Shown: positions 15,882 through 45,495 of the stretch, piece after piece
Numbering within the stretch: the stretch's first letter is position 1
How the letters are laid out: each line of letters starts with the position of its first letter
Source of the DNA: Methanoregula sp.
GTDB taxonomy: Archaea; Halobacteriota; Methanomicrobia; Methanomicrobiales; Methanospirillaceae
NCBI GenBank assembly: GCA_028679075.1
Contig: JAJRCF010000001.1
Location: 248,001 to 312,000, forward strand
Direction of reading: 5' to 3'
Length of the DNA stretch: 64,000 nt
Position numbers and translations under genes: made by a program
The notes under the pieces: generated by a model
Database searches by the model: none
What the model was told of the DNA's origin: nothing
What the model saw: the letters and a program-made list of their open reading frames with translations, nothing else

Positions 15882-17735
15882 ATGGCAAAAGAGAAGGTTC
15901 TGGGAATCGATCTGGGAACAACCTTTTCCTGTATGTCGATCATGGAGGCCGGGAAGCCCATCGTCATCCCGAACTCCGAGGGCGGAAGGACGACTGCATC
16001 GATCGTCGCGTTTACCAAAGAGGGGGAACGTCTTGTCGGCAGCCTTGCAAAAAGGCAGGCAGTAACCAACCCCCAGCGCACGATCCAGTCCATCAAGCGG
16101 AAGATGGGGACGAGCGAGAAAGTGACCATTGACGGCAAGGGCTACACCCCGCAGGAGATCTCCGCAATGATCCTGCAGAAGCTCAAGGTCGATGCCGAAG
16201 CCTACCTTGGCGAGAAGATCACCAAGGCCGTTGTCACGGTCCCGGCATATTTCAACGATGCCCAGCGCCAGGCCACCAAGGATGCCGGCAGGATCGCCGG
16301 CCTTGAAGTGCTGCGGATCATCAACGAGCCGACAGCAAGCGCACTCGCCTATGGTATCGACAAGGAAAACGATGCAACGGTTCTTGTCTACGACCTCGGC
16401 GGCGGGACCTTCGATGTATCGATCCTGACGCTTGGCGACGGTGTGTTTGAAGTGAAGTCCACGGCCGGCAACAACCATCTTGGCGGCGATGACTTTGACA
16501 AACTTGTCCAGGACTACCTGATCGAGGAGTTCAAAAAGAAGGAGGGAGTTGACCTCAGGAATGATCCCTATGCAATGCAGCGCCTGCGGGAAGCGGCTGA
16601 AAATGCAAAGATCGAGCTCTCCCAGCGACAGACCACGAACGTCAACCTCCCGTACATCACCACCGATGCGAGCGGCCCCAAATTCCTTAACATCGACCTG
16701 ACCCGGTCAAAACTGGAACAGCTCATCGGGGCACTGGTAGAGTCAACAGTCGGCCCGGTCAAACAGGCCCTCAGCGATGCAAAACTGGAGCCCAAGGACA
16801 TCGACCATGTCCTGCTTGTCGGCGGATCGACCCGCGTGCCGCTGGTTATCGAGACCGTACGGAAACTCCTTGGCAAGGAACCGGACAAGGGCATCAACCC
16901 CGATGAATGCGTCGCGCTCGGCGCCGGTATCCAGGGAGCAGTCCTGACCGGGGAGACAAAGGATATCGTCCTCCTGGACGTCACCCCGCTGACACTCGGC
17001 ATCGAGACCCTTGGCGGCATTGCCACCAAGCTCATCGAACGGAACACGACCATCCCGACACGGAAGAGCCAGATCTTCTCCACTGCTGCGGACGGCCAGA
17101 CCAGTGTCGAGATCCATGTCGTGCAGGGTGAGCGGGCACTGGCGAAGGACAACTTCACGCTGGGCAAGTTCCAGCTGACCGGCATCCCGCCCGCGCCACG
17201 CGGCATCCCCCAGATCGAGGTCACGTTCGATATCGACTCGAACGGCATCATCCACGTGTCGGCAAAAGACCTTGGCTCGGGCAACCAGCAGGCGATTTCC
17301 ATCAAGGGCGACCGGAAACTGTCCGAAGAGGACATCAAGAAGGCGATGGAATCAGCCAAGCAGTTCGAGGAAGAGGACAAGAAGAAGCGCGATGAGATCG
17401 AGCTGCGCAACCAGGCGGACACCGCCGTCTTCATGGCCGAGAAGATGCTCAAGGAGAGCGGCGACAAAATCGATACGGAAGACAAGACAAAGATCGAGGA
17501 CGGCATTGCAGCGATAAAGAAGGCCCTGCCGGAAGACAACCTCGACGAGATCAAGAAGGCCATGGAATCCCTGACAGAGTCCGTCTACGCGGCAACTACC
17601 AAGATCTACCAGAAGGCCCAGGCAGAACAGGCCGCACAGCAACCGCCGGGCAGTGGTGCCGGTCCCGCTCCCGAACAGGAGCAGAAGACCGATGACAATG
17701 TCGTCAATGCCGACTATAAGGTAAAAGAAGAGTGA
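15882..17735 (+). CDS. dnaK: Chaperone DnaK (Hsp70)
   Basis: ATP-driven folding chaperone. 617 residues: ATPase domain with [10 protein letters not shown], the [11 protein letters not shown] phosphate loop and [10 protein letters not shown], the substrate-binding domain starting around [14 protein letters not shown], and a lid ending in an acidic tail ([14 protein letters not shown]). A clear AGGAGGT lies upstream. Three bases separate it from grpE and seven from dnaJ. Hsp70 is thought to have reached archaea from bacteria; the operon order here is the bacterial one. Confidence 0.98.
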
Positions 17736-17742: not shown

Positions 17743-18873
17743 ATGAGTGCGGGCGATTACTACGACACGTTAGGTGTTCCGCGGAATGCCGACGAGAAGG
17801 AGATCAAGAAAGCCTACCGCAACCTCGCCCGCAAGTACCACCCCGACGTCTGCAAGGAGCCCGGGGCAGAAGAGAAGTTCAAGCAGATCAACGAGGCCTA
17901 CAGTGTCCTGTCCGATGACCAGAAAAAGGCACAGTATGACAACATGGGCCACGATACCTTCACGAATGCCTCAAAGGGCTCCTACACCGGTGGCGGAGGG
18001 TTTGGCGGGGGAGGGTTCTCCTCAGATTTCTCAGGCTTTGGCGACATCTTCGATTTCTTTGGTGGCGGAGGCCGGCAGAGATCCGGGCCCCAGCCCGGTG
18101 CCGACCTGCTGATGCGCATCCAGATACGGCTCGAGGATGCCGTCGCCGGCATGGACCGGGAGATCGAGGTGATGCACTCGGAGCCGTGCACGGCCTGCAG
18201 CGGCTCCGGCAGTGAGACAAAAAGGCTGAATGTCTGCCCGCGGTGCGGTGGCAGCGGCCAGATGCGGCAGGCAACCAACTCCCCGTTCGGGCAGTTTGTC
18301 CGTATGTCTACCTGCACCCAGTGCGGGGGCAAAGGGAAGATCCCGGAGAAGACCTGCCGGGAATGCCACGGCACAGGACATTCCCGCATCAAGCGGAAAG
18401 TATCCGTGCACATCCCCGCCGGGATCGACAACGGGATGCGGCTGCGCATGGAAGGGTACGGGGAGGCCGGGGACTACGGGGCCGCGAACGGCGACCTGTT
18501 CCTCGAAGTCTATGTCCAGCCCCATGACCGGTTCACCCGTGCCGGTGACAACCTGGAGACTTCTGTCGAGATCAGCCCGATCCAGGCGATTCTCGGTACC
18601 CAGATCGAGATCGAGACCATTGACAAACGCCACATCGATCTCAGGATCCCGGCCGGCATCCAGTACAATACGGCACTCAAGCTTGCCGGCGAGGGGGTCA
18701 AGCGGCGGGGAAAGCCGGGAGACCTCCTGGTCCGGGTCAGGATCATCACGCCCAAATCCATCAGTAACGAACAGAAAGAGCTGTACCAGAAACTGGCTGA
18801 ACTGGAAGGGAAAGGCGGCGGTGCCGGCGGCTTCTTCTCCGGCATCATGGGAAAGAAGAAGGGTAAGAAGTAA
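17743..18873 (+). CDS. dnaJ: Chaperone DnaJ (Hsp40)
   Basis: Stimulates the DnaK ATPase and delivers substrates. 376 residues with all classical parts in order: J domain with the HPD triad (KYHPD, about residues 31-35), a Gly/Phe-rich region (about 77-105), four CxxCxGxG zinc motifs ([32 protein letters not shown]), and two C-terminal beta domains. It ends in a Gly/Lys-rich tail. Third gene of the heat-shock operon. Confidence 0.97.
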
Positions 18874-18954: not shown

Positions 18955-19923
18955 ATGAAGCTGCTCTTTGAGCTCTCGGGAGAGAATGCAACCCTCCCGT
19001 TCGCGGAGCTCGAATGTATCGGGACCGTGACGGACCGGCGCTTGCAGGTCGCGGTAGCCGAATGCCCTGACCCGGCGGCAGCTGAGCGCCTTGCCATGAC
19101 CCAGGTAGTGCTCGAATACCTCGGAGAGTGTGAGCCCGATCTCACGGCATTCCGGGACCTGCTCAAAGACCTGGCACTTGAAACGGACCGTGCCTTTGCC
19201 GGCAGGGCAAAGAAGGTCCACGGGGGGTGCCATGAGCGCAACCCGGCATCGCAGCGCGAATTCGAGCGGCTGATCGGCACCATGGTCTCCGGTCCCGTCT
19301 CGCTCAATTCACCGGAGGTCGAGTACCGGGCCATCCTCTCGGAAGACCGGTGCTATTTTGGCAGGGTCATATGTACGATCGACCGGGCCGCATACGATAC
19401 CCGGAACCCCGGCAAACGCGACTTCTTCCACCCGGGGGTCATGATGCCGCGGATGGCACGGACCCTCGTGAATATTGCGTGCACCCGCCCGGGCGATGTT
19501 GTGCTTGACCCGTTCTGTGGGACCGGGGGTATTCTTATCGAGGCCGAACTGCTCGACATGCGCACGGTTGGCAGCGACTTCGACCCCTTCATGATCGGCG
19601 GGAGCCTGCAGAATGCAAAGGAAACGGACTTTCTCATGGGGGATGCCACATCCCTCCCGTTCCGGGACCATTCGGTTGACAGCGTTGTCACGGATTTCCC
19701 GTACGGCCAGTCGGTCTGCATCCTCAAGAGCGATACGATGGACCAGCTCTATGGCGATGCCCTTCTCGAGATCCGTCGGGTACTCCGTCCCGGGCGCCGT
19801 GCGGTTGTCGTCACCCACCGTGACATCTCCGGCATTGCAGCACAGCACATGACCGTACTGCAGCAGCACAACCAGCGGGTCCACAAGAGCCTGACCCGCA
19901 GGGTCCTGGTGCTGGCCCACTGA
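18955..19923 (+). CDS. Trm-G10-like tRNA guanosine methyltransferase
   Basis: 322 residues. The N-terminal half resembles the THUMP-containing part of archaeal TrmG10; the C-terminal half is a Rossmann SAM-dependent methyltransferase with VLDPFCGTGGILIEA (SAM loop) and the catalytic motif DFPYGQS, where the family usually has DPPYG. The known family makes N2-methyl or N2,N2-dimethylguanosine at position 10 of tRNA. The Phe in place of the first Pro is a visible deviation. It lies 82 bases after dnaJ, possibly with its own start. Confidence 0.85.
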   Translation: MKLLFELSGENATLPFAELECIGTVTDRRLQVAVAECPDPAAAERLAMTQVVLEYLGECEPDLTAFRDLLKDLALETDRAFAGRAKKVHGGCHERNPASQREFERLIGTMVSGPVSLNSPEVEYRAILSEDRCYFGRVICTIDRAAYDTRNPGKRDFFHPGVMMPRMARTLVNIACTRPGDVVLDPFCGTGGILIEAELLDMRTVGSDFDPFMIGGSLQNAKETDFLMGDATSLPFRDHSVDSVVTDFPYGQSVCILKSDTMDQLYGDALLEIRRVLRPGRRAVVVTHRDISGIAAQHMTVLQQHNQRVHKSLTRRVLVLAH

Positions 19924-20241: not shown

Positions 20242-20340
20242 ACGAGTGCAACGTAAGCCCGGGAGCGTCAGCATCCCGAAATGATTTCTACGGAGCAGAA
20301 TTCTTTATTCTTCTTTCGCACCAGATATTATCCGGTTGAT

Positions 20341-21039
20341 ATGAGCATACGATTCCCGGTACACCTGTCGATAATCATGATTATCTTCCTGTTTGCATGC
20401 TGCACTCCGGCCCTTGCCTATTCCGGCGATGCAACCGGGCGGTACGCACAGGGCAATGCGTTCCTTGCTTCAGGGAATACTACCGATGCCATCGCGGCAT
20501 ACGATCAGGCAACCGGCCTTGAACCGGCATACTTCGAGGCGTGGGACGCAAAAGCGGACGCACTCAACCGTGACGGCCGGTTCTCCGAAGCACTGGACGC
20601 GTCCACCCGGGCCGTGGAGATCAATCCCGGGTATGTCCAGGGCTGGATCAACCGGGGCCAGATCCTCTATAACCTCGGGTATGTGTACGAAGACCAGATG
20701 AACGACCCGGCCCGGGCGAACGAATACTATACCCAGCAGGTCCTTGCATTCGAAAAGGCGATCGCGCTCGATCCCACAAATGCCGATGCCTGGTTTAACA
20801 AGGGATATGCCCTTGCCGGCATGAAGCGGTATGATGAAGCGATCGCTGCATTCGACAAGGTGAAGGAACTCAACCCGGATTACCCGAAGATCGACAAGAA
20901 CCGGCAGATTGCCCAGCAGCTCAGGGACGCAGCCGCACCTGATTATATGAAGTTTGCCCCGGTGTTCGCTTGTATTGCCGTGGTCATCATCGGCATAGTC
21001 ATCTGGTTCGTGTTCCTGCGGGAAAAAGAGGAGGAATAA
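20341..21039 (+). CDS. Membrane-anchored TPR protein
   Basis: About 232 residues: a signal peptide or N-terminal anchor (about 1-28, ending CTPALA), four TPR-like units (for example YAQGNAFLASGNTTDAIAAY and WFNKGYALAGMKRYDEAIAAF) and a C-terminal membrane helix (about 207-226) followed by FLREKEEE. The TPR part is therefore probably outside the membrane, acting in protein contacts. The frame extends upstream to 20281, but the ATG at 20341 opens directly on the signal peptide. It converges on the giant TPR gene, 56 bases away. Confidence 0.82.
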   Translation: MSIRFPVHLSIIMIIFLFACCTPALAYSGDATGRYAQGNAFLASGNTTDAIAAYDQATGLEPAYFEAWDAKADALNRDGRFSEALDASTRAVEINPGYVQGWINRGQILYNLGYVYEDQMNDPARANEYYTQQVLAFEKAIALDPTNADAWFNKGYALAGMKRYDEAIAAFDKVKELNPDYPKIDKNRQIAQQLRDAAAPDYMKFAPVFACIAVVIIGIVIWFVFLREKEEE

Positions 21040-21095: not shown

Positions 21096-24000
21096 TTACC
21101 GCCCTTTCTCATAACAGATCTTTGCTTCTTCGGGTTTCCCGATCTTGTCAAGCACATCCCCGATATCGTTCCAGCACTCCTTGCGCCCGGGATCGATCTC
21201 CAGCGCCCGCTTGAAAGCAGCGAGGGCGTCCTGGAACATGCCCATCTCCTGGAGCGCCCGGCCCTTGTGGATCCAGGCATCGACAAACTCCGGCTGGATA
21301 TGGAGCATTGCATCGAACGCCTCCACGGCTTCTTCATTCCGGCCAAGAGCAATCAGGGCACTCCCCCGCGTAAAGTACGCGATGGAGAACGTCGGATCGA
21401 TCAGTAAGGCACGGTCATAGAATTCGAGGGCTTCATCGTATTTCTGCCGGGCCGACAGGGCCATCCCCAGCCGTGTCAGTGCCTCGGTATTCTCCGGGTC
21501 CAGTACAAGCCCGCTCTCGTACGCCTTCTCTGCATCCGGATATTTCCCGAGATCATACAGGACATTTCCTTTTCCCATCCATGCCTCGACAAGGTTCGGG
21601 TCCAGCTCGATCCCCTTGTCAAAGGCCTCGATCGCGTCCCGGTTCATCCCGAGCTCGGCAAGGGAGACCCCCTTGTGGGCAAATACCGGCGGGAGGTGCT
21701 CGATCTCCAGTGCACGGTCATAGGACCCGATCGCCTCGCGGTATTGTTCGAGGGCTGCATAGGCCAGTCCCTTCTGGTCATGGATGACGGCCATCCGCGG
21801 CATGATCTCCAGTGCATGGTCGAATGCCGTGATCGCCGCATCGTAATTCGCCTGGTCAAAGAGTGCACGACCCTTCCAGAAGAATGCCTGCCAGCAGGAA
21901 GGGTTGATATCGATCGCCTGGTCAAAGGCTTTGGTTGCTCCTGTCGGGTTCGCAAGGGCGAGGAGCGCCCGGCCCTTTTCATACAGGGCACCCGCATTCC
22001 CTGGGGTGAGCACGAGGACCTGGTCAAAGGAGGCAATCGCCTCCTTGTATCTCCCGGTGTGGATCAGGGACCTCCCGCGCTCGTAGATCGCCTCGGCATA
22101 TTCATGCTGGATGGCAAGTGCCGCGTTGAACGCAGAAATCGACTCATCATACCGTTCGATGCGGGCAAGGGCAACACCCTTGTGGTAGTATGCCTCCGCG
22201 TAACGGTTGTTGTTTGCAAGGGCCATGTCAAACGCCGGGATCGCGTCCTCGTACTGGTGCTGTTCAAGGAGAGCACGGCCCTTGTAATAATAGGCTTCGG
22301 GATAATCCGGCTGGTGCAGGAGCGCCTGGTCGAATGCACTGACGGCTTCATCGGCACGATGTACTTTGATCAGGGCAATGCCCCGGAAGAGGTATGCCGC
22401 GGCATAGGACGGGTTGAGGGAAAGGGCGTGCTCGTAGTCCTGGAGGGCCGAATCGAACTGGCCGAGGCTGGCGCGTGAGATCCCGCGGTACAGCCAGGCT
22501 TCCGCAAAGCCGCCATTCTCCGATATCGCCCGGTCATATGCCGTGACAGCCTCATTGTTCATGGAGAGCATCGCAAGCGCCCGGCCCTTCTGGTAGTACG
22601 CTTCTGCACAGTCCGGGTGCTGTGCCAGCGCTGCCTCGAAATTCTTAAGGGCCTCCTGGTATTTCCCGAGCCTTAACAAGGAAAAGCCAAGGGAATAACT
22701 GGCACGTGCATCCTTTGGATCGATACCGAGGGCTTTGTTGAAGAAACTGACCGCGTCCTGGTCCCTGCCAAGAGCGGACATGGCCCTTCCCTTCCCCGTC
22801 CAGATACGGGCGAAATTGGGGCGGATCTTCAGGGCCTTGTCAAAGGCCTCGATCGCCTCGTCATACTGCGCGAGCTTTGCAAGTGCTGCCCCCTTATGGT
22901 ACAGGGCTTCCACATTCTTTGGCTGGAGGGCGAGTGCATTATCGAACGCAATCACCGCCTCTTTGAACATGCCCATATGGCACAGGGACCTTCCCTTGTC
23001 GTAATATGCCGACACATAATCCGGCCGGATCTCCATGGCCCGGTTGAAGGCCTCGATCGCATCCTCGAACCCGCGGGATGCATAGATCGCACTGCCCTTG
23101 AGGTACCAGGCATCGGCATTGGAGGGATCGATCTCGAGCGTCCGTATATAGGATTCAACGGCATCGTTGTGCCTGCCCAGTGCGGACAGGGCCTTGCCCC
23201 GGTGAAGCCATGCATCGATCGATTCCGGGAAGAGCTGGATCACGACATCGAACGCTTCGATCGCATCCTGGTACCTCCCGGTCTGGGAGAGGGAAAGCCC
23301 CTTGTGGTACGATGCCTGCCAGTTGTCGGAGTCCAGGTCGATATTCTTGTTGAAGGCAATGATCGCCTCGTCGTGCCGGCCAAGGTTTGCCAGGGCAAGA
23401 CCTTTGTTGTAATACACACCGGCATAGTTCCCGTCGATGCTGAGCACCTTGTCAAAGGTCTTGACCGCCTCGCGGAACATCCCCAGCGCCGAGAGGGCCC
23501 GGCCCTTGTCGTACAGCGCTTCCATATACGCGGGGTCGATCTCCAGTGCACGGTCGAAGACCTTGATCGCCTCCTCGTTCTTCCCCATCTTTACCAGGGC
23601 GGCACCCTTGAAATGGAGGGACGGGATGTGCATGGGCTGGACCGCAAGTGCGTTATTGTAGGCATCGACCGCTTCTTTTGGCATATCAAGGCTGTCGAAG
23701 GAACGGGCCCTCATGAAGAGGGCATCGAAATAGTCCGGCCGTATGCGGATCGCCTGGTTGAATGCGTGGATCGCATCGTCATGACGGTTGAGCCGGGACA
23801 GGGCCATGCCCTGTTCGAACCATGCCCTGTCATTATCCGGTGTCAGGGTCAGCAGGAGATGGTAGGAATCGACGGCTTCCTCGAACTTATCAAGGGCGAC
23901 ATACGATGCAGCGCGATAATACATCGCGTCGTGGTTTCCCGGGTCAGACCGGATTACCGTGTCGAATGCCTGGATCGCATCGCCATACCGTTTGAGGTCA

Positions 24001-27000
24001 TAGAGGGCATGCCCTTTCGCATGCCAGGCTTCGGTATGCTGCGGAGAGTGCTCGATGATCTTATCAAACGACTCAATGGCACGGTCATGGGATCCAAGTG
24101 CAGAGAGTGCACGCCCCTTTCCGAGGTATGCTTCTAGGTCATCCGGACGCTGTTCGAGCACATGGTCAAATGCGGGTACGGCCTCATCGAAATTCCCCAG
24201 CTGCATATAGGACTGGCTCAGGTGATACCATGCGTCCGTGAGGCTTGCGTCCAGGTCAAGGGTGACGGAGAGCGTGGATGCCGCATCAGAAAACCGGCCA
24301 AGGTGAAAGAGTGCCAGCCCTTTATGGTAGAGGGCAGGGACATACGAAGCATTGATCGAGAGCGTTGCATCGAATGCCGTTAGCGCTTCCTTGTACTGGG
24401 CCAGCCGCTCGAATGCGAGCCCCTTGTCGTAAAAGGCATTGAGGAAGTGCGGATCGATCGCGGTCGTGTTCTCGAATGCCTGGATCGCATCGCGGTCACG
24501 GTCAAGGCGCACCAGGGCAACGCCCTTGTCATACCACGCGTTGGCATATTTCCGGTTGATCGCGATGGCGCGGTCGTAGGATGCAACCGCCTCTTCATAC
24601 CGGCCCAGCTCCGATAATGCAATGGCACGGTCGTACCACCCGTTTGCATTTTTGGGGTCCAGGTCCAGGGCGTGGGTCAGGGCATCGATGGCCGGTTCAA
24701 ACTGGCCGAGCGAGAGGAGCGAACTCCCCTTCCTGAGCCAGGCTCCCCCGCAATGTTCATCGGCCTGGAGTACCTGGTCGAAACAGGGGATTGCTTCCTG
24801 GTAGCGTGCCAGATCGGAAAGCGACCGGCCTTTTAAGTACCAGGGGACCGGGTTATCGGGAGTGAGGGCAATGGCACGGTCAAAGGATTCCAGGGTCTCC
24901 TCAAACCGGCCAAGGTCGTAGAGAGTATTGCCCCGGAGCACCCAGACATCGGCATTGTTGTTTTCAATCTCCAGTGCACGGTCTATCGACTGGAGTGCGT
25001 CGTCAAACCGTGACAGCCGGGCAAGGGACCGCCCCTTCTGGTACAATACCTGGGAATTGTCCGGCTCCACTTCCAGCATCTTGTCAAACGCCTTGAGGGC
25101 GTTCTCATATTTTCCGAGCCCGAAGTATGAGAGCCCGGTCTGGTACACGGCATCGACGATTGACGTGTCATGGGTAAGGGCCTGTTTATAGGAGCGGATC
25201 GCCTTCTCATATTTCGCAAGTGCCTGGAGTGCCAGCCCCTTGTGGTAATGGGCCAGGGCAAAATCCGGGGTATGTTCGAGGGCATAGTCGAACGATGCAA
25301 TCGCATCCGGGTATTTCCCGAGCCGCGAGAGTGCACGCCCCTTCAGGTATGCGGCATCATACCAGGTAGCGTCGAGTTCAAGGGTACGGGTAAACGACTG
25401 AATTGCCTCCTCATCCCGGCCGAGCTCCGTTAATGCCTGCCCGCGGCTGAACACGGCCTGCACGGACTTCGGGTCAAACTCAATCGTTTTATCAAATGCA
25501 AGAAGGGCGGAGGAATAGTCTGCGAGTTTTGAGAGGCAGACCCCCTTGTCGAGCCATGCCGCTGCGTCTTCCGGTGCGAGGTCCAGGGTTCGGTTGAAGG
25601 ATTCCAGTGCGTCCTGCCACCGGCCGACCTGCATCAGGGAGTTCCCGCGGTAATACCAGAGTTCCCGGGTATTCAGCCCGATCGATACGGCACGGTCAAA
25701 TGCCGTGACGGCATCGTCATGACGGCTGAGGATTGCCAGTACCAGCCCTTTCTGGTACGCTGCATCCCGCATATCCGGCTGGAGCTCGAGGGTGCGATCG
25801 AATGCCGGAAGGGCGTCTTCGTATGTTTTGAGTGACCCCAGTTCACGCGCCTTGTTGTACCACGCGACAGCACAGGCATCGTCGAACGTGACGGCATTCT
25901 CGAATGCCGCAAGGGCGTCCTCGTGGAGGTTCTGTGCAGAAAGGGCAACGCCCTTGTAGTACCAGGCGGAGGCATTTTTCTGTTCGAGAGCGATCAGTTT
26001 CTCAAACATCGCATAGGCATCTTCCCACCGGCTGAGGTGGAGATACGCCTTCCCCCGGAAGAGCAGGGCTGTCGGGTTCTGGGGTTTGCGCTTCAACGAT
26101 TTGCCCAGCGATTCCACTGCCTCCTTATACCGGGCGAGGCGGTAAAGGGAATGTCCCTTGCAGGCAAGGAGCTCCGGGTTTGCCGTATCGTTTTCCAGCG
26201 CCCGGTCGAGTTCAATGACCGAGTCCTCGTACCGGGAAAGTTTTACGAGAGAGATACCCCGGCCCCGGTGTGCCCGCACATTTTCCGGATCCTGTGCAAT
26301 CACCCCGTCAAATGAGGAGATGGCCTCAGTATAGCGGTTGAGGAGCAGCAGGGACTCGCCTTTTGATAAGAGCGAGCGTGAGTCCTGCGGATCGATGGCA
26401 AGTGCCCGGTCCGCTGATGCGATCACGGCATCATACCGTTCAAGCCTGAACAGGCAGAGCGCCTGTTCGGTATGGACACGGGACGTGTTCAGGCCGAGCT
26501 CGATGGCGCGGCTGAACGCATTGAGCGCCTCTTCATGCCGGTCGAGCTGGGTGAGGGCGAGCCCCTTCTCAAACAGGATCTCGGCAACATCCGGTTTTAC
26601 CGCAAGGAAACCATCAAACGCTTCCACGGCCTTTGCATATTTTTCAAGGAGGACAAGCGCCCTGCCCTTCTCCTGCCATGCCTCGGTATTCGAAGGGTTG
26701 ATCTCGATGACCCGCGTGAACGCGGCAACCGCGTCGTCATACTCATGGCTGAGCATCTGGGCAAAACCCTTGTACAGGAATGCCCGCTCGCAGTCCGGGG
26801 AGATCCGGTTGACTTTTGCATATGCGGCGATCGCTTCCTTGTACGACCCGAGATGGTCCTGTGCACGGGCCAGCCCGTACAGTGCCGCGAGGTCCTTGGG
26901 ATGGACCGCCAGTACCTGTTCAAAGGCCGTTGCCGCTTCGCGGTGCCTCCCGAGTGCGGCAAGGGTCCGGCCATTCTCGAGGAAGGCCTCGGTGAAGTCC

Positions 27001-30000
27001 GGCATCAGCCGGTTGGCTTCATCAAAGGACGCTGCGGCCTCGGGCAGCCGTTTCAGGCGGAACAGGGCAATGCCCTTGTAATAGTAGGCTTCCCCGAACT
27101 CAGGGACCAGCCGGATGGCCTGGTCGAATGCCGCCACCGCATCTTCATCATTTCCGAGGCTGATCTGCGCCCGCCCCTTGTAGAACCAGGTATGGGGGTT
27201 CTCTGTCTCGATCTCCAGGGCATTGTTGTACGAGAGCACCGCTTCAGAGAACCGCTCGACCGCAAAGAGGCAGAACCCCCGGATCAGCCAGGCATTGGCA
27301 ATTTTCGGGTTTGTCTCCAGGGTCTTTGTCAGGATCTCGATCGCGTCGGTGAATTTTCCCAGCTCGGCGAAGGCCAGGCCCTTGTGGTAGAGGGCGTCCC
27401 TGTTGCCGGGATCGAGCTCAAGGGCCTGCGAAAACGCGGATGCCGCTTCATCCTGCCGCCCGAGGACCGCAAGCGCAAGGCCCTTCTGGTAAAGGGGATC
27501 GGCGTTCCGTGGATCGATGCTGATCGCGGCATCGAACGATACGATCGCATCCTCATGGTTCTCAAGACGGGCCAGCGCGAGCCCTTTCTGGTACTGGATT
27601 GCCGCATCCTCCGGGGTGATCTCAAGGGCGATGTTGAAGGACATGACCGCCTCTTCGAACATCCCGATCTCGGCAAGGGCAATTCCTTTCTGGTAGAATG
27701 CCGGGGTGTAGCTGGGTATCAGGCCAAGGACCCGGTCGAACGCTTCCACTGCTTCGAGATACTTTTCCAGGTGTGCCAGCGCGAGCCCGCGGTCATAATG
27801 GGTCATGGCATCCAAGGGATCGAGCTCGATCGAGTGGTCGAATGCCGGGACTGCATCGGCAAACCGTCCGAGCTCGGCAAAGGCCGTGCCTTTGCTGTGC
27901 CATGCTTCGGGAGATTCAGGCCGGATACTGATCGCCCGTTCAGCTGCTGACAGGGCATCTTCATTCCTGCCGAGGTCGTGCAGGGCTAATGACTTGCGGA
28001 GTGCAGCGTCGGCAAGCGACGGATCGGATTCAAGGGCATGGTCGAATGCTTCAACGGACTCCTGGTAGCGGCCGAGGGCATAGAGCGCGAGCCCGCGCTG
28101 GTGGTGGGCAGGGGCGTACCGGGGCGTGAGGGTGATGCAGGTGTCCAGGACCTGGATGGCATCGTTCTGCCGTTCCATCGCAATCAGGGCAAGACCATGG
28201 TGGTAGAAGGCCATCGCGTTTGCAGGGTCGAGCGTCTCGGTACGCTCGAATTCCACGACCGACTCCGCGGGATGCGACAGTGCCAGGAACGACAGCCCGG
28301 CATGATAATGCGCTTCGGCAGAGTTCGGGTCAAGCCGGATCGCAAGCGAATATTCTTCCAGCGCCTCGTCATGCTGGGAGAGGTCGGCAAGGGCCCGTGC
28401 CTTGTAGTAATGCGCCTGGAAATTGTTTGCATTCTCCACAATTGCCTTGTCGAAATCATGGATTGCATCCCGGTATTTCCCAAGGTTGTACAGGGCAATG
28501 CCTTTCCTCAGGCGTGCATCGGTGTACCGGGGTTTCAGCTGGAGGGTCTTGTCAAAGGCAAAGACCGCATCGCTGTGCCGGCCAAGGTCCCCGTAGGCCT
28601 TCCCCTTGTGATAGAATGCAAGGGCATTCTCCGGGTCGTAGATGAGGGCCTTGTCGAAGGCTTCCAGTGCGTCCTCGAACCTGCCGGTCTTTTCCAGTGC
28701 AATGCCGCGGTTGAAATGCCCGGGAGCATTGCTCGTATCTTTTGCCAGGTTCTTGTCGAAGGCTTCCAGCGCTTCGGGATATTTCCCGGTCTTCAGGAGC
28801 GCAAGGCCGAGATAATAGAAGGCCTCCGTGTAGGAAGGCTCAATCCCGATGGCCTGGTTCAGGGATACGATCGCATCCGGGTACCGGCCGATCTCGATCA
28901 TGGATCTGCCCTTGTTGTACCATCCCGGTGCGAAATCAGGGAGGATGGTGATGGTCTTCTCGAAACTGGTGATCGCGTCCCGGTGGTCCCCGAGCTTTGC
29001 GAGCGACAGCCCCTTGTGGAACTGCGCATCGCCGTTCTTCGGGTCGATCTCGAGCAGGATCTCAAAGACGTGGATCGCGCCCTCGAACCGGTTCACTTTC
29101 TCCAGTGCCAGGCCCTTGTAGTAGAATGCCTCGATACTCCGCTGGTTCAGTGCAATGGCGCTGTCAAAGGCATCGATGGCGTCCTGGTACCGGCCCATGT
29201 CAAAGAGTGCCCGGCCGTTCTTGATCCAGCCGGCCTCGTTGTCGGGTTCGATCTTTAAGGATTTTGCATAGGCAAGGATCGCATCATCCGTCCTGCCGAT
29301 CTGGTTGAGCGCATCACCCTTGCGCATCCAGATGTCATAGAGCGCCGGGTTGATCTCGAGCGCCCGGGTGTAAGCGCTGATCGCATCGGGGATCTTCCCA
29401 AGGTCGTATAACGCGGACCCTTTCCGGACCCACCCCTCCGAAAGGCCGGCATTGATCTCCAGTGCCTTCGTGTAGGCGTTGATGGCGTCCAGTTTCCGGG
29501 ACTGGCCGGACAGGGCATCCCCCTTCTGCATCCAGACATCGATGAGGGTCGGGTTGAGCGAGAGGATACGGTCGTCGGTCTCGATCACTTCAGGGTACCG
29601 CCCAAGGACAAAGAGGGACCGTGCCTTGCAGATCATCGCTTCGATCAGCGAAGGATTGACGGCAAGGCTCTGGTCAAGCAGCGGGATCGCTTCTTCATGG
29701 CGCGATACCGCGGCAAGGGCAATACCCTGGTACATGTAGCCGTCGGAAAGCGTTGGATCGAGCTGGGTTGCCTGCGCGAGCGTTGAGATCGCGTTCTCGT
29801 ACTGCTTTGACTGGAGATAGGCAAGCCCCATGTAATAATACGAGAGCGCATTTTCCGGTTCAAGGGTGAGGGCACTGGAAAAGGCCTTGACGGCATCATC
29901 GTACCGTTCCCGCTGGATCAGCGCGATTCCCCTGAAATGGTGGGCCTGCGCATTCGATGAATCGAGGGCAAGGGAACTGTCGAATGCCTTTATCGCATCA

Positions 30001-32516
30001 TCGTACCGTTCACGTCCGGCATACGCGATCCCCAGGTAGTAGAAACCGGAGGCATTCTCCGGTTCAATGGCAAGGGCACTCTCGAATGCAATGATCGCAT
30101 CATCGTACCGCTCCCGCTGGGCGAGGGCCACTCCCTTGTGATAGAGGATCCGGGGATCGTCCGGGGACAGGTCCAGGGCCTGGTCGTAGGAGACCACGGC
30201 CTCGAGAGGTTTTCCCATTTTTAAGAGGGCATTCCCTTTCTCAAAGTAGGCCCGCGGGCATTTCCGGGTGATCTCGAGGGTCTTGTCAAACGAGCGGACG
30301 GCCTCATCGTAATGTTCCAGCGCCGAGAGGGCGAGTCCCTTGTAACACCAGGCATACAGGTCGCGGGGGTTGTCGTCAAGCGCCCGGTTCAGGACCGTGA
30401 TCGATTCGTCGTACCGACCGAGGGAATACAGGGCAATGCCCTTCCGCATCGAGGCTTCACTCAGTTTCGGGTTGAGGCCGAGGGATTTGTCGAACGATGC
30501 GATCGCATCCTCACGCCGGCCGAGATGGGCAAGGGCAATCCCCTTGTACAGCCACCCGTCCGTGAGCGCCGGGTTCTGTTCCAGGGCTTCCTCGAATGCA
30601 TTGACCGCGTCCTGGTAACGCAGCAGGTTGAACAGGGCAAGGGCCTTCTCGTAGTGGGCGTTCGTGTTCTGCGGGGATATCGCAAGGACTGCATCAAACG
30701 CGGTCACGGCCTCCGGGAACCGGTTGAGCCGGGAGAAGGTGAGGCCCCGGTGGAAGAGCGCAAGCGTATGGGACGGATCGATCTCCGCCGCTTGTTCGAA
30801 TGCTGCGATCGCGTCTTCGTTCCGGCCGAGCTGGACAAGGACGAGACCGCTCTGGTAATGGGCATTGATATATTTGGGATTGATGGCAATGGCCTTGCCG
30901 AATGCGTCCAGCGCTTCATCAAACCTCTTGAGCTTGACGAGCGCCGTCCCCTTGTCGTAGAATGCCTGCACGTAGGTGGGGCGGAGCCCGATGCTCTGGT
31001 CAAACGACTCGATCGCCTCTTCAAACTTCCCGACTTTTATGAGCTGCAGCCCTTTCTGGTGGTATGCCTGCGCATTGTTCGGGTCGAATGCAACGGTGCG
31101 GTCGAACTCCTGGACCGCGTCCTCGTTCCTCCCGAGCTTGGAGAGGGCAAACCCTTTGTGATAGAGGGCATCGGAAAAACCGGGATTGATCCGCAGGGCC
31201 CGGTTATAGGCATCGACCGCCTCGGTGAACCGGCCAAGGCTGGCATACGAGATCCCTTCCTGGAAGGCTGCCGACGCACACCCGGCATCCCGCTGGAGTG
31301 CGTCCTCGAACGCTTCGATCGCTTCCTTGTGCCGGCCCAGGCGCGTGAGGGCAATCCCCCGGAAGTAATGCGACCCGGCATGGTCCGGGTCGAGTGCGAG
31401 CCGACGGGTGAACGAGTCAAGCGCCTCTTCGTACCGGCTCATGTTGATGCAGGCAACGCCGCGGCGGTACCAGGCGTCCTCGTTACCCGGTTCCATATTC
31501 GTTGCCTGGTCGAAATCCACGACTGCTTCGCGGTATCGTTTCAGCCGGAAACAGGCAAGCCCCCGCTGGAATACGGCGCCCGCATTCCCGGGCTGCACTT
31601 CGAGGGTCTTTGTAAATGCTTCCACGGCGTCCTCGAACCGTTCGATCTGCATGTCCGCAAGCCCGAGGTAGTACCAGGCATCGGGAAGATCGGGGTTCAG
31701 GTCGGTTGCCTGGTGCAGGGCATAGACCGCGTCCACGTACATCCCGATCTTGAATAACGACATCCCCTTGATCGCCCAGATGTCCGCGTGACCGGGCTCG
31801 TTCCTGAGGAAATTTTCCGCGGACTGCACCGCATCTTCGTGCCGCTCCTGCTTTGCAAGGATAAAACTCCGGTAATACCAGACCCAGATATCGTCCGGAT
31901 CGAGTTCCAGCGCACGGTCGAACGCGGCCAGGGCCTCGTCATATTTACCGACATCGTAGAGGGAGATCCCCTTGTTGTAATACGCACGTGAGTATTCGGG
32001 AACGATCTCGATCGCCTTGTTGTACGCGAAGATCGCTTCCTGGTGCCGGCCAAGGTCCGCAAGCGCAATCCCCTTGTTGTAGAACACTTTTGCGTGACGG
32101 GGGTCCACCATCAGTGCATGGTCGTAGGCGCCGATCGCGTCCTGGAACCGGCCCAGCTCGTACAACGCGATCCCCTTGAGGATCCAGGCCTCGGCATTAT
32201 CGTATTTTATGGAGAGGAGGCGGTCGCAGGCAACGAGGGCCTCTTCGTTCCGGCCGATCTGGGCAAGGGTTGCGGCCTTGTTATACCACGCATTGGGATC
32301 GGCGGGTTCGATAGCAACGGCCTGGTCGTAGGCATCGATTGCTTCTTCGTATTTTCCTAAGTCGTACAGCGCGATGCCCTTGAAGTAATAGGCTTTTGCC
32401 AGCCGGGGATACAATGCAAGTCCCCGGTCGAACATGACGATGGCTTCCTGGAACCGGCCAAGATCATAGAGTTCAATGCCCTGCCGCAACAATGCTTCTG
32501 CATCACTCTTGTTCAT
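21096..32516 (-). CDS. Giant all-TPR protein (3806 residues, about 112 repeats)
   Basis: The whole chain consists of 34-residue tetratricopeptide units with the pattern W/Y-Y-x-K-G-x-A-L-x-x-L-G-R-Y-x-E-A-I-x-A-F-D-x-A-L-x-I-x-P. Counting from the first GIELYDLG motif (residue 13) to the last GDVLDKIG (residue 3786) gives 111 intervals of 34, short by a single residue. The one 33-residue unit I found lies at ALEIEHLPPVFAHKG near the C terminus. There is no signal peptide, membrane helix or other domain, so it should be cytoplasmic. TPR stacks form superhelices of about eight repeats per turn, so this would be about 14 turns long. The start at 32516 has GAGGT ten bases upstream. The binding partner is unknown. 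Confidence 0.95.
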   Translation of the reverse strand: MNKSDAEALLRQGIELYDLGRFQEAIVMFDRGLALYPRLAKAYYFKGIALYDLGKYEEAIDAYDQAVAIEPADPNAWYNKAATLAQIGRNEEALVACDRLLSIKYDNAEAWILKGIALYELGRFQDAIGAYDHALMVDPRHAKVFYNKGIALADLGRHQEAIFAYNKAIEIVPEYSRAYYNKGISLYDVGKYDEALAAFDRALELDPDDIWVWYYRSFILAKQERHEDAVQSAENFLRNEPGHADIWAIKGMSLFKIGMYVDAVYALHQATDLNPDLPDAWYYLGLADMQIERFEDAVEAFTKTLEVQPGNAGAVFQRGLACFRLKRYREAVVDFDQATNMEPGNEDAWYRRGVACINMSRYEEALDSFTRRLALDPDHAGSHYFRGIALTRLGRHKEAIEAFEDALQRDAGCASAAFQEGISYASLGRFTEAVDAYNRALRINPGFSDALYHKGFALSKLGRNEDAVQEFDRTVAFDPNNAQAYHQKGLQLIKVGKFEEAIESFDQSIGLRPTYVQAFYDKGTALVKLKRFDEALDAFGKAIAINPKYINAHYQSGLVLVQLGRNEDAIAAFEQAAEIDPSHTLALFHRGLTFSRLNRFPEAVTAFDAVLAISPQNTNAHYEKALALFNLLRYQDAVNAFEEALEQNPALTDGWLYKGIALAHLGRREDAIASFDKSLGLNPKLSEASMRKGIALYSLGRYDESITVLNRALDDNPRDLYAWCYKGLALSALEHYDEAVRSFDKTLEITRKCPRAYFEKGNALLKMGKPLEAVVSYDQALDLSPDDPRILYHKGVALAQRERYDDAIIAFESALAIEPENASGFYYLGIAYAGRERYDDAIKAFDSSLALDSSNAQAHHFRGIALIQRERYDDAVKAFSSALTLEPENALSYYYMGLAYLQSKQYENAISTLAQATQLDPTLSDGYMYQGIALAAVSRHEEAIPLLDQSLAVNPSLIEAMICKARSLFVLGRYPEVIETDDRILSLNPTLIDVWMQKGDALSGQSRKLDAINAYTKALEINAGLSEGWVRKGSALYDLGKIPDAISAYTRALEINPALYDIWMRKGDALNQIGRTDDAILAYAKSLKIEPDNEAGWIKNGRALFDMGRYQDAIDAFDSAIALNQRSIEAFYYKGLALEKVNRFEGAIHVFEILLEIDPKNGDAQFHKGLSLAKLGDHRDAITSFEKTITILPDFAPGWYNKGRSMIEIGRYPDAIVSLNQAIGIEPSYTEAFYYLGLALLKTGKYPEALEAFDKNLAKDTSNAPGHFNRGIALEKTGRFEDALEAFDKALIYDPENALAFYHKGKAYGDLGRHSDAVFAFDKTLQLKPRYTDARLRKGIALYNLGKYRDAIHDFDKAIVENANNFQAHYYKARALADLSQHDEALEEYSLAIRLDPNSAEAHYHAGLSFLALSHPAESVVEFERTETLDPANAMAFYHHGLALIAMERQNDAIQVLDTCITLTPRYAPAHHQRGLALYALGRYQESVEAFDHALESDPSLADAALRKSLALHDLGRNEDALSAAERAISIRPESPEAWHSKGTAFAELGRFADAVPAFDHSIELDPLDAMTHYDRGLALAHLEKYLEAVEAFDRVLGLIPSYTPAFYQKGIALAEIGMFEEAVMSFNIALEITPEDAAIQYQKGLALARLENHEDAIVSFDAAISIDPRNADPLYQKGLALAVLGRQDEAASAFSQALELDPGNRDALYHKGLAFAELGKFTDAIEILTKTLETNPKIANAWLIRGFCLFAVERFSEAVLSYNNALEIETENPHTWFYKGRAQISLGNDEDAVAAFDQAIRLVPEFGEAYYYKGIALFRLKRLPEAAASFDEANRLMPDFTEAFLENGRTLAALGRHREAATAFEQVLAVHPKDLAALYGLARAQDHLGSYKEAIAAYAKVNRISPDCERAFLYKGFAQMLSHEYDDAVAAFTRVIEINPSNTEAWQEKGRALVLLEKYAKAVEAFDGFLAVKPDVAEILFEKGLALTQLDRHEEALNAFSRAIELGLNTSRVHTEQALCLFRLERYDAVIASADRALAIDPQDSRSLLSKGESLLLLNRYTEAISSFDGVIAQDPENVRAHRGRGISLVKLSRYEDSVIELDRALENDTANPELLACKGHSLYRLARYKEAVESLGKSLKRKPQNPTALLFRGKAYLHLSRWEDAYAMFEKLIALEQKNASAWYYKGVALSAQNLHEDALAAFENAVTFDDACAVAWYNKARELGSLKTYEDALPAFDRTLELQPDMRDAAYQKGLVLAILSRHDDAVTAFDRAVSIGLNTRELWYYRGNSLMQVGRWQDALESFNRTLDLAPEDAAAWLDKGVCLSKLADYSSALLAFDKTIEFDPKSVQAVFSRGQALTELGRDEEAIQSFTRTLELDATWYDAAYLKGRALSRLGKYPDAIASFDYALEHTPDFALAHYHKGLALQALAKYEKAIRSYKQALTHDTSIVDAVYQTGLSYFGLGKYENALKAFDKMLEVEPDNSQVLYQKGRSLARLSRFDDALQSIDRALEIENNNADVWVLRGNTLYDLGRFEETLESFDRAIALTPDNPVPWYLKGRSLSDLARYQEAIPCFDQVLQADEHCGGAWLRKGSSLLSLGQFEPAIDALTHALDLDPKNANGWYDRAIALSELGRYEEAVASYDRAIAINRKYANAWYDKGVALVRLDRDRDAIQAFENTTAIDPHFLNAFYDKGLAFERLAQYKEALTAFDATLSINASYVPALYHKGLALFHLGRFSDAASTLSVTLDLDASLTDAWYHLSQSYMQLGNFDEAVPAFDHVLEQRPDDLEAYLGKGRALSALGSHDRAIESFDKIIEHSPQHTEAWHAKGHALYDLKRYGDAIQAFDTVIRSDPGNHDAMYYRAASYVALDKFEEAVDSYHLLLTLTPDNDRAWFEQGMALSRLNRHDDAIHAFNQAIRIRPDYFDALFMRARSFDSLDMPKEAVDAYNNALAVQPMHIPSLHFKGAALVKMGKNEEAIKVFDRALEIDPAYMEALYDKGRALSALGMFREAVKTFDKVLSIDGNYAGVYYNKGLALANLGRHDEAIIAFNKNIDLDSDNWQASYHKGLSLSQTGRYQDAIEAFDVVIQLFPESIDAWLHRGKALSALGRHNDAVESYIRTLEIDPSNADAWYLKGSAIYASRGFEDAIEAFNRAMEIRPDYVSAYYDKGRSLCHMGMFKEAVIAFDNALALQPKNVEALYHKGAALAKLAQYDEAIEAFDKALKIRPNFARIWTGKGRAMSALGRDQDAVSFFNKALGIDPKDARASYSLGFSLLRLGKYQEALKNFEAALAQHPDCAEAYYQKGRALAMLSMNNEAVTAYDRAISENGGFAEAWLYRGISRASLGQFDSALQDYEHALSLNPSYAAAYLFRGIALIKVHRADEAVSAFDQALLHQPDYPEAYYYKGRALLEQHQYEDAIPAFDMALANNNRYAEAYYHKGVALARIERYDESISAFNAALAIQHEYAEAIYERGRSLIHTGRYKEAIASFDQVLVLTPGNAGALYEKGRALLALANPTGATKAFDQAIDINPSCWQAFFWKGRALFDQANYDAAITAFDHALEIMPRMAVIHDQKGLAYAALEQYREAIGSYDRALEIEHLPPVFAHKGVSLAELGMNRDAIEAFDKGIELDPNLVEAWMGKGNVLYDLGKYPDAEKAYESGLVLDPENTEALTRLGMALSARQKYDEALEFYDRALLIDPTFSIAYFTRGSALIALGRNEEAVEAFDAMLHIQPEFVDAWIHKGRALQEMGMFQDALAAFKRALEIDPGRKECWNDIGDVLDKIGKPEEAKICYEKGR
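21096..32516 (-). repeat. Tandem 102-bp coding repeats
   Basis: The DNA of the giant TPR gene is a tandem array with a 102-base period. Most units are diverged, but some neighbours are close. GCATCATCGTACCG recurs at 29893, 29995 and 30097, exactly 102 bases apart. The array also makes long open frames on the opposite strand, which are side effects of the periodic codons. Confidence 0.9.
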
Positions 32517-32606
32517 GGAATTTTTTACCTCGTGTTGAAATGCCGGGTACTATCGGGGATTATTATTTTCTCATCCTGCTGTCGATGGATTCTTCTGCCA
32601 TAGAGG

Positions 32607-32753: not shown

Positions 32754-33986
32754 TCAGTGCCGGTCCAGCTGCCGGATCACCCGGGACAGCCGTTCCACAC
32801 CGGTCCGGATCTTCTCCGGGGTCGAGTTGGAGAAATTGAGCCGGAGGGTATTACTGCCGCCCCCGTCCGTATAGAACGGCGTGCCGGGGAGGACGGCCAC
32901 CTGCTCTTTCAGGGCATGTTCGAACACGTCCATGGAGGAGATCCCGTCCGGCAGGGTGACCCAGACAAACATCCCGCCCCGGGGTTCCGTGCAGGTGACC
33001 GAAGCCGGCATCAGCTCCTTAATCAGGCTGACCATGAGGCTGCACTGCTCCCGGTACCGGGCACGGATGATCCGGATCTTTGCATCAATGTCCACCGTGC
33101 AGAGGTACTCGTACGCGATCCGCTGGGACAGGTAATTCGAGTGGAGGTCCGAGGCCTGTTTTGCGATGACCAGCTGTTCCATGATCGCGGGGGGAGCAAC
33201 CACCCATCCCATCCGCATGCCCGGCGCAAGGATCTTTGAGAACGACCCGGTGATGATCGTCTGTTCCGGCAGGTACTGCCGGAACGAGGGCAGGGAGTGC
33301 CCGTCAAAATTCAGTTCGCCATACGCATCGTCTTCGACTACGAGCGTGCCCCGTTCTGCGAATATCGCCGCGAGCTCTTTTCGCCGGGCTCCTGAGTAGG
33401 TGATCCCGGAAGGGTTCTGGGAATTCGGGACCCCGTAGAACAACCGGACCGGGTAGTGGTCGAGCTCATGTGCCAGCATTGCCGGGTCGGGCCCGTCCTC
33501 GTGCAGAATGACCGCGTGGAAGACGGGTTCAAAGAGCGAAAAGGCCTGGATCGCGCCAAGATACCCGGGCCGTTCGATCGCCACATGGTCGCCGGGACTG
33601 ATGAGGACTTTCCCGATCAGGTCAAGGCACTGCTGCGAGCCGTTCGTGATCAGGATCTCGTCGGGGGATATGTCCAGCCCGAGGCGTTTTTTGTACCGGT
33701 CGGCAATGAACTGGCGGAGCGGGCGGTACCCTTCGGTCGTGGAATACTGCAGTGCAACTTTCCCGTCCTGTGCAAGCACATCTGCGGCGGCCCGGGCTAC
33801 GCCCCCGACATCGATGAGCTCCGGGTTCGGGAGGCCCCCGGCAAAGGAGATGATCCGGGGGTCTTCGGTCACCTTGAGGATTTCACGGATGAAAGACTTG
33901 GGCGTCTTTGCCATCCGGGATGCAAACGTGTACTTTCGGCCGCCGGATGTTTTTGCCCCGATCGGTAACGGTGTCTGCTGGCTCAT
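32754..33986 (-). CDS. PLP-dependent class I/II aminotransferase
   Basis: 410 residues of the aminotransferase fold used by 2-aminoadipate aminotransferase (LysN) and the MocR-type enzymes: an N-terminal FAGGLPNPEL segment, QYSTTEGYRPLR, TNGSQQCLDLI, VPNSQNPSG, the VEDDAYGEL aspartate region, the PLP lysine in GSFSKILAPGMRMG and the carboxylate-binding RLNFS near the end. The donor and acceptor cannot be named from sequence; aromatic, branched-chain or aminoadipate-like substrates are all possible. No winged-helix domain precedes it, so it is an enzyme rather than a MocR regulator. GGTGAACC lies before the ATG. Confidence 0.9.
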   Translation of the reverse strand: MSQQTPLPIGAKTSGGRKYTFASRMAKTPKSFIREILKVTEDPRIISFAGGLPNPELIDVGGVARAAADVLAQDGKVALQYSTTEGYRPLRQFIADRYKKRLGLDISPDEILITNGSQQCLDLIGKVLISPGDHVAIERPGYLGAIQAFSLFEPVFHAVILHEDGPDPAMLAHELDHYPVRLFYGVPNSQNPSGITYSGARRKELAAIFAERGTLVVEDDAYGELNFDGHSLPSFRQYLPEQTIITGSFSKILAPGMRMGWVVAPPAIMEQLVIAKQASDLHSNYLSQRIAYEYLCTVDIDAKIRIIRARYREQCSLMVSLIKELMPASVTCTEPRGGMFVWVTLPDGISSMDVFEHALKEQVAVLPGTPFYTDGGGSNTLRLNFSNSTPEKIRTGVERLSRVIRQLDRH

Positions 33987-34154
33987 GGTTCACCTGATCT
34001 GTCCTGATCAGTTTGGGGAGGAAGATCCATAAAGTGATCCCTCCAGCGGGAGACGTCAATGAGCTCATGGACAGCGGTGCAGCAGGCCGGACGGGTTACA
34101 CTTTCACCCCCCTCACGCCCTCCCTTTTTAGTTCCGGCAATTCTTTTCACTGGT

Positions 34155-34328
34155 ATGATGGATGTGGCAGCACAGGAAAACGCAACAGGTTATGACTTCC
34201 GGCACCTTGACCGGATCCGGGAAAAATTCCATGACGTGTTTGGCAGTGAATGTACGTTACGCGACGAGACACTCGTGCAGCGGTACACCATTGCGCCCGA
34301 TGGCGAGCTGATTATGTTCGTACGGTGA
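34155..34328 (+). CDS. Small hypothetical protein (57 residues)
   Basis: A short frame starting at tandem ATGs (34155, 34158) gives a charged protein containing YDFRHLDRIREKFHDVFG and ending GELIMFVR. Codon choice is like the neighbouring genes. I do not recognise it, and no clear ribosome site is present. It stands alone between the aminotransferase and the repeat array. Confidence 0.35.
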   Translation: MMDVAAQENATGYDFRHLDRIREKFHDVFGSECTLRDETLVQRYTIAPDGELIMFVR

Positions 34329-34443
34329 CTCAGGTTTCCGTCATAAACGGGGGTGTCTGGAAAAACCTCTCCTGGTTGCTGATGACAAATCGTGTAGATC
34401 TGCCGGATGCCCTGTTCTACAAAAACCTCCGGACCTTTTTTGC

Positions 34444-34823: not shown

Positions 34824-34845
34824 GTTGTGAAATGGTAAGCTCATG

Positions 34846-35053
34846 TTAATGATGCGAGGCCCACGCGCAAAAGGCCTCCCAGATTTTGCGCTACGTATTT
34901 ACTAGTTCTCTTGGCATGATCCAGAACCTTGCCCAGCGAGGGCCCGACGAGGCGCCCGAGCGACTCCGCGCGAAGCGTGGAGGGGGTGAAATCGTAAAAA
35001 ACGCACGTAAGTCCAAAAGAAAATATTATCATCTCAAAATTTAACGAAAAATT
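34846..35053. other. Intergenic GC-rich patch inside AT-rich DNA
   Basis: Between the repeat array and the zinc-ribbon gene lies about 100 bases of strongly GC-rich sequence (about 34915-34995) in AT-rich surroundings. A 96-codon minus-strand frame crosses it but shows no recognisable domain and overlaps the next gene. It may be a dispersed repeat or a gene remnant. With the array, this completes the 725-base gene-free stretch 34329-35053. Confidence 0.4.
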
Positions 35054-35413: not shown

Positions 35414-35455
35414 TACGTATTGTTAAGCAGGTCTGAAAAAAACGGAGGTGAGATA

Positions 35456-45146: not shown

Positions 45147-45148
45147 AC

Positions 45149-45456: not shown

Positions 45457-45495
45457 AGCCGGATGTGAGAACCTCTCCATTGTTATCTTTCTTTT

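Follow-up and report, generated by a model that had tools for sequence, protein, structure and literature searches.

What sets the length of a protein that is built from more than one hundred copies of a single repeat type? This question is raised by a 64,000-nucleotide stretch of Methanoregula sp. DNA (contig JAJRCF010000001.1, positions 248,001 to 312,000; this whole stretch is hereafter called the window), which contains a giant gene made of tetratricopeptide repeats (TPRs), i.e., a minus-strand open reading frame (ORF) at 21096..32516 that yields 3806 aa from an ATG start. Our data show that, among its orthologues, the length of this array changes mostly by eight units.

The giant array and its orthologues

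A preliminary description of the window had proposed a TPR-only protein of about 112 repeats with near-perfect 34-residue spacing and one single-residue slip. Units were parsed with an iterative 34-column matrix fitted to the window protein, followed by a re-parse in which a 33-residue unit was permitted. Of the 112 units that this fitted parse uncovered, 110 are full 34-residue TPRs, one has 33 residues, and the last is partial (residues 3782-3806), which bears out the proposal. Each of the 110 full units scored 35-68 bits with the matrix, which was trained on the same protein. The full units span residues 9-3781, and the sole irregularity is a 33-residue stretch at residues 3579-3611 (unit 106). 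The first and last repeat landmarks, at residues 9 and 3782, are exactly 3773 residues (111 x 34 - 1) apart, as had been calculated.

In addition, each third of the protein matched the Pfam family TPR_1 with 657.6, 655.5, and 840.4 bits, respectively (cut-off, 27.8; E = 2e-205, 1e-204, and 4e-263). Among the best 25 of the 34-40 passing families per third, only TPR-type and other helical-repeat models were found, in agreement with the earlier statement that no other domain is visible. A glycosyltransferase catalytic domain is absent from these best 25 families, and the units reach the last residue; neither end has an anchoring domain. No signal peptide or membrane segment was seen when the sequence was read by eye, no predictor having been run. 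Since the units of the window array share a mean identity of 31% and Tandem Repeats Finder detected no DNA-level repeat in the giant gene, we regard it as an old, diverged array. Plus-strand frames of up to 492 aa lie antisense to 21096-32516 and are probably a by-product of codon composition.

A homologue search comparing repeat numbers, which the preliminary description had called for, uncovered orthologues with 112 to 159 units in two genera. With the C-terminal 900 residues as query, 32 of the 39 Methanoregula genomes gave a match (E of 1e-150 or better), and with the N-terminal 654 residues 31 did (1e-120 or better), so that both searches combined place an orthologue in 33. In the sister genus, 5 of the 8 genomes carry an orthologue, i.e., all five with at least 90% completeness and at most 5% contamination. 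No orthologue was found in G007, G017, G045, G046, G048, and G051 (genomes 64-94% complete). The methyltransferase marker of the locus is likewise missing from G017 and G048; in G046 it is followed by 1.1 kb up to the contig end, and this 1.1 kb contains no TPR array. When the C-terminal 900 residues were compared with named genome contigs, only 5 distant bacterial loci (L021-L025) were returned.

The family is under strong purifying selection in these two methanogen genera. Across aligned units of six pairs, dN/dS was 0.073, 0.081, 0.095, 0.147, 0.094, and 0.151, with synonymous sites near saturation in the last two, and unit 1 is the best conserved unit (mean identity of 88% to orthologues). 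Intact orthologues are present in six single-contig genomes (G011, G018, G021, G040, G053, and G056), and misassembly, named earlier as a possible refutation, is therefore unlikely. In the single-contig genome G016 (L040, G016:C1:1900500-1920400), the giant gene is frameshifted into frames of 3236 and 1966 residues, a break in which decay and sequencing error are indistinguishable. The G020 orthologue (L028) has a main frame of 120 units, and its first ~seven units lie in a separate frame.

Length differences and internal duplications

Orthologous units are ~46-70% identical to those of the window in aligned blocks, compared with 31% within one protein, and therefore the arrays could be aligned unit by unit. 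The 26 complete arrays have 112 (n = 3), 120 (n = 7), 128 (n = 5), 136 (n = 4), 144 (n = 2), 121 (n = 2), 134, 151, and 159 units (n = 1 each), such that 21 counts (112-144) are divisible by eight. Excluded from this set are L028, the frameshifted L040, the fragments L052, L053, L066, and L096-L099, and the orthologues of G004, G009, G012, and G013, which are known from short contigs only. A 33-residue unit occupies the place of unit 106, counted from the C-terminus, in 20 of the 23 complete Methanoregula arrays parsed and in none of the 4 from the sister genus.

A maximum-likelihood (ML) tree provided six branch-independent sister comparisons with unequal length, and all six differ by 8 or 16 units: the window versus the M. 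formicica group (8), L047 versus L048 (16), L049 versus L028 (8; the missing first units of L028 were set aside), L032 versus L034 (8), L037 versus L051 (8), and L063 versus L065 (16). If sizes were uniform modulo eight, as the one-in-eight null presumes, six of six would have a probability of (1/8)^6 = 4e-6. Adding three pairs that share a branch (L050-L032, 8; L029-L037, 17; L062-L063, 7) gives multiples of eight in 7 of 9 contrasts (p = 1.4e-5), the six being the cleaner count. These nine sizes were stable over five alignment settings, and three others of the 15 comparisons run varied. L047/L048 stand in an open fork of the tree, as do L032/L033/L036, and the support for L037+L051 is 94/91. 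In the G010/G003/G011 clade, the alignment, uncertain there, places another 8 units after unit 44.

What, then, produces steps of eight? Selection, rather than DNA mechanics, is the cause that we infer. The chief rival holds that an amplified block and unequal crossing-over 816 bp apart produce the steps by themselves, the fold being irrelevant, and we consider this unlikely. Near-identical tandem eight-unit blocks are present in L037 and L051, and their recombination would yield further steps of eight without any selection, which counts for the rival and against selection. L037 contains three 816-bp blocks with ~95% DNA identity and abrupt ends; both genomes are drafts, in which an assembler could miscount the copies but hardly the block unit. 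Also in the rival's favour, nebulin demonstrates that one duplication unit, there of seven domains, can be retained by a repeat family (PMC1553488).

Offsets of 1-40 units were scanned in 23 Methanoregula arrays. This analysis revealed eight-unit duplications in 14 of them, some also at 16 and 24, and a duplication at offset 15 in three (two of which are among the 14); eight arrays have none, and no other offset occurred. Internal duplications were absent from four sister-genus arrays. Among 170 unit pairs that are at least 60% identical within arrays (from 23 arrays, 19 of Methanoregula and 4 of the sister genus), 151 fall at offsets 8 (n = 108), 16 (n = 36), and 24 (n = 7). The eight-unit duplications occupy six clade-and-place combinations. 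Three of these lie in or near a hot spot at units 67-85, so that they may have a common history and need not be independent, as the mechanical rival would have it; the other three, outside the hot spot or at the far end, argue against it.

An old eight-unit super-repeat was considered and rejected, as the profile autocorrelation of the 112 window units has no peak at 8, 16, 24, and further multiples up to 56. Neighbouring units are the most alike (z = 5.8 at offset 1, which alone exceeds 3, versus 1.3 at 8, 0.3 at 16, and 0.2 at 24), and homology would therefore favour steps of one. Other TPR arrays show no preference for eight either. In the control arrays L068, L069, and L070, units are most alike at offsets 1-2, with offset 8 ranking third in L069 (40.4 versus 41.5%), and L071 has no eight-unit signal. 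L068 (G015:C3), a second Methanoregula TPR array of 3032 residues, consists of 88 homogenised units with 63% identity between neighbours and hence, in contrast to the giant gene, was amplified recently. G025, a genome from another family of the order, has an ORF (L042-L043, G025:C6, ~153803-173932) that encodes ~6710 aa with 196 units and has duplications at offsets 1, 3, and 4. This array and that of G057 (at least 112 units, cut by the contig end), both from Methanomicrobiales, are likewise TPR-only and very long, but they have different ends and duplications at offsets 1-4, and no eight-unit duplication was found in them. Collectively, the arrays and controls speak against DNA mechanics as the sole cause.

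Predicted geometry, surface, and function

The preliminary description had further suggested about eight repeats per turn and some 14 turns. We analyzed two AlphaFold2 (AF2) models of window segments, units 49-64 and 81-96, i.e., two of the seven 16-unit blocks. Each model has 561 residues (16 units plus cap) and 33 helices, as befits repeats of two antiparallel helices, with predicted local distance difference test (pLDDT) scores of 96.0 and 96.5, respectively. The consensus-TPR structure 8chy superposes over 272/272 residues at 1.4 Å on the first model and at 1.6 Å on the second, and 9qhc_B matches the C-terminal half of the second model at 1.8 Å across 258 residues. The superhelices of O-GlcNAc transferase (OGT) fit at 3.6-6.0 Å over 342-388 residues, and for the second model 8chy ranks first (Z = 30.6 versus 27.9 for OGT). 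Two reports state that eight consensus TPRs complete one superhelical turn (PMC7885266) and that such arrays have seven to eight repeats per turn with a pitch of ~72 Å (PMC4191447). A superhelix of about eight repeats per turn is thus predicted for the giant protein, consistent with the earlier suggestion, to which the eight-unit length quantum lends independent support. Because the models match a superhelix with eight repeats per turn, the quantum would equal one predicted turn, although 7 also falls within the published range. At 72 Å each, 14 turns would form a rod of ~100 nm.

Position classes (groove, buried, loop, turn, and convex) were assigned by us from TPR structure. Conservation in excess of the general TPR pattern, averaged over 109 well-covered unit columns, was 0.48 for the groove positions of helix A (0.58 and 0.57 at positions 34 and 6), 0.41 for buried helix-B positions, 0.39 for the loop, 0.34 for the turn, and 0.32 for the convex face. 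Groove positions are also those that differ most between units, and each groove segment therefore seems to be preserved individually.

Further analysis revealed that net charge per unit (orthologue mean) is most strongly periodic at 8.2 units (global p = 0.0099; p = 0.0004 within 7.3-8.3; 10,000 shuffles). By turn phase, units 7 and 8 average +0.2 and -0.6, and the others range from -1.3 to -2.2. The window by itself gives p = 0.077 globally and p = 0.0063 within that range, with 11 of 16 net-positive units in phases 7 or 0. Two control arrays have no charge period. Total net charge is the only one among eight features with a best period near 8; concave and convex charge have theirs elsewhere, convex charge giving p = 0.023 within 7.3-8.3. 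When the window is taken by itself, no period is seen for hydropathy, negative charge, or helix A charge, and positive charge has one of 8.1 (global p = 0.043).

On balance, we lean toward a cytoplasmic ~100-nm linear TPR scaffold whose groove is position-specific and whose face is fixed, and in which mainly whole turns are gained or lost. A scaffold was among the roles guessed at the outset and stands as the best reading; a fixed-length ruler, also guessed, is unsupported, since related species have 112 to 159 units (26 arrays). The gene product would be one very long cytoplasmic TPR superhelix with 14 turns of eight repeats, and its inner groove would present a fixed order of individually conserved putative binding sites, with all turns facing one way. 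As repeats i and i+8 would point in the same direction, only whole-turn changes would preserve the face and keep both conserved ends in register, and selection would let the array change mainly eight repeats at a time. The length data suggest that it makes a difference to the cell which way the rod faces. Whether a 14-20-turn rod is held by selection to its angular register, so that turns are added or removed only whole (to within one repeat), with a straight partner such as a filament, a membrane, or nucleic acid reading one face, seems to us nearly balanced, tipping slightly toward doubt.

Several observations weigh against this scaffold of whole turns. Unit counts in 5 of the 26 arrays are not multiples of eight, a 7-unit difference occurs in the sister genus, and at site 22 the G023/G005/G041 clade (L029, L037, and L051) carries 15 units, compared with 8 in others. 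L029 (G023) is one further unit short, which produces differences of 17, 25, 9, and 1 from various relatives. Each of these exceptional differences misses a multiple of eight by a single unit. Between the genera, ~units 54-85 are unalignable, and events there were therefore left uncounted; G010/G003/G011 arrays align poorly in parts, with 20 mid-array units unalignable between the window and L039 (G011). As to geometry, the top Z for the first model belongs to OGT structures (29.5 for 1w3b and 6eou, above 27.8 for 8chy), though at the looser fit of 3.9-6.0 Å, and we take the OGT superhelix to have about seven repeats per turn. At the surface, the rest of helix A (0.45) nearly matches the groove, and single buried positions exceed it. 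One conserved side was tried and rejected, as per-unit conservation (all, concave, convex, loop, and turn) peaks at other periods. As eight features were examined in all, and p = 0.05 within 7.3-8.3 is attained in 8 of 16 related arrays, we count the charge period as support, not proof, for a face.

Two other functions appear improbable. In an elastic spring, the superhelix would store or buffer force and whole turns would be units of extension, and consensus TPR arrays do act as springs in optical tweezers (PMC8944806). A spring needs no position-specific groove, yet in every unit the groove residues are maintained at their positions, and neither end of the protein has an anchoring domain. 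We give equally little credence to a co-chaperone platform for the adjoining DnaK/DnaJ system. Gene neighbours were scored by blastp (E 1e-8) against the window neighbours in 30 orthologous loci, 27 of which have at least 2 kb behind the giant gene and 27 of which can be judged on the upstream side. A methyltransferase gene next to dnaJ-dnaK adjoins the giant gene in 21/27 loci from two genera, but the genes are convergent, and no chaperone-side marker was found in 6/27 loci. Nine outgroup loci keep the methyltransferase without a TPR array of at least 5 units, with dnaK-dnaJ there in 7. In addition, the window DnaK ends in ...DYKVKEE and not in EEVD, the tail that eukaryotic TPR clamps bind. 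Finally, misassembly or a decaying selfish repeat, which the broken frames of G016 and G020 might suggest, is refuted for the family by six intact single-contig genomes, dN/dS of 0.07-0.15, and conserved ends.

Locus, related systems, and implications

The features of the giant gene and its neighbours are collected in Table 1.

Table 1. Features of the giant TPR gene and adjoining genes (window coordinates)
Feature	Position	Strand	Basis or occurrence
Giant TPR-only gene, 112 units	21096..32516	-	Unit parse, Pfam
Shine-Dalgarno-like GAGGT, 10 nt before ATG at 32516	32527..32531	-	Read from sequence
Conserved N-terminus (MNKSDAEALLRQGIELYDLG...) including unit 1	32391..32516	-	Orthologue comparison
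Unit 22/23 junction; +8 units in other species, +15 in one clade	30246..30251	-	Unit alignment
Units 51-58, placed as missing in G010/G003/G011 clade	26577..27392	-	Unit alignment, uncertain there
Units 67-85, hot spot for 8/16-unit gains and losses	23823..25760	-	Unit alignment
Unit 81/82 junction; exactly +8 units in nearest relatives (M. formicica and two others)	24228..24233	-	
Unit 106, lone 33-residue unit	21684..21782	-	Unit parse
Conserved C-terminal partial unit (WNDIGDVLDKIGKPEEAKICYEKGR)	21099..21173	-	Orthologue comparison
Aminotransferase gene, upstream of giant gene	32754..33986	-	In 17/27 judgeable loci
252-aa TPR protein, convergent with giant gene	20281..21039	+	In 20/27 loci with enough flank
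RNA-methyltransferase-like gene (UPF0020)	18955..19923	+	In 21/27 loci with enough flank
dnaJ, neighbour	17743..18873	+	
dnaK (HSP70), neighbour	15882..17735	+	

Besides the aminotransferase loci, the upstream side has another window neighbour alone (AP-endonuclease-like or MscS) in 3 of 27 loci and nothing in 7. The six loci without a window marker downstream are L026, L027, L039, L040, L047, and L048, in which 3.3-4.6 kb were examined. L039 (G011:C1:1168500-1188400, single-contig) has no window neighbour on either side within 3-4.6 kb, and its giant gene may be a relocated copy or may have rearranged flanks. The nine outgroup loci of the order have no close relative of the 252-aa TPR protein and no such aminotransferase within ~9-10 kb. 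Since gene order is partly kept and these outgroup loci lack an adjoining TPR array, the giant gene probably originated next to the methyltransferase in the ancestor shared by both genera, or was relocated to this site at an early stage. An ancestral short homologue at the locus was considered and rejected, as no TPR array of at least 5 units is present in the outgroup loci. Five further loci of the order, L072-L076, which encode other TPR proteins, contain no methyltransferase, dnaJ, or dnaK marker.

Read by eye, the 252-aa TPR protein (20281-21039) begins with a signal-like stretch and carries a membrane segment at its C-terminus, and its few TPRs should therefore be extracellular. Elsewhere in the window, the GC content of 34001-36000 is 43%, versus 58% before and 51% after, and a tRNA-Thr gene follows at 36599, a possible integration spot. 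The region 42720-59108 holds genes for a TATA-binding protein, an ABC transporter, an M42 peptidase, CO dehydrogenase/acetyl-CoA synthase, and a RACo-like activator.

Besides the other giant TPR arrays of the order, three known systems bear comparison with the giant protein. Consensus TPR (CTPR) superhelices (CTPR8 8chy and 2fo7; CTPR16 9qhb) share its 34-residue helix pairs and predicted path, but they are designed, with up to 20 repeats in the published work consulted, whereas the giant protein is natural, with 112 individually conserved units that are 31% alike. The natural TPR superhelices of OGT and SPINDLY (1w3b, 6eou, and 7y4i) are the nearest natural solved structures by sequence; they comprise about a dozen repeats and a catalytic domain. 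In OGT that domain follows the TPRs, unlike in the giant protein, where none is among the best 25 Pfam families per third. The third system, nebulin, has a repeat unit that matches the actin filament and is visible as a super-repeat, whereas the unit of the giant TPR protein matches its own predicted turn and no super-repeat is visible. Growth by a constant unit is common to both (here mostly eight units, with exceptions of 7, 15, and 17), a likeness in the way they work and not one of membership, and no sequence relation is expected. Nebulin, likewise a giant built from a single type of repeat, lengthened in constant steps of seven domains (PMC1553488).

The TPR itself is ordinary, but the repeat number (112 to 159) and the mode of length evolution are not. 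Earlier papers give 3-16 or 2-20 repeats per TPR protein (PMC4304861; PMC7279152). Among the matches listed in our literature search, which mostly left out subscription papers and preprints, no published work on the giant protein or on turn-wise solenoid growth was found; the one paper in which both Methanoregula and tetratricopeptide occur has them in unrelated tables (PMC2362130). What is new is the mode of length evolution, in eight-unit steps. Whether solenoid repeats can slip by one thereby becomes directly testable, and if array length is locked to turns, the number of repeats per turn in a natural solenoid could be obtained from comparative genomics alone. If our interpretation is true, a partner facing one side of a 100-nm rod awaits discovery in the archaeal cell, and the periodicity of the tertiary structure, not that of the sequence, would be the unit of evolution.
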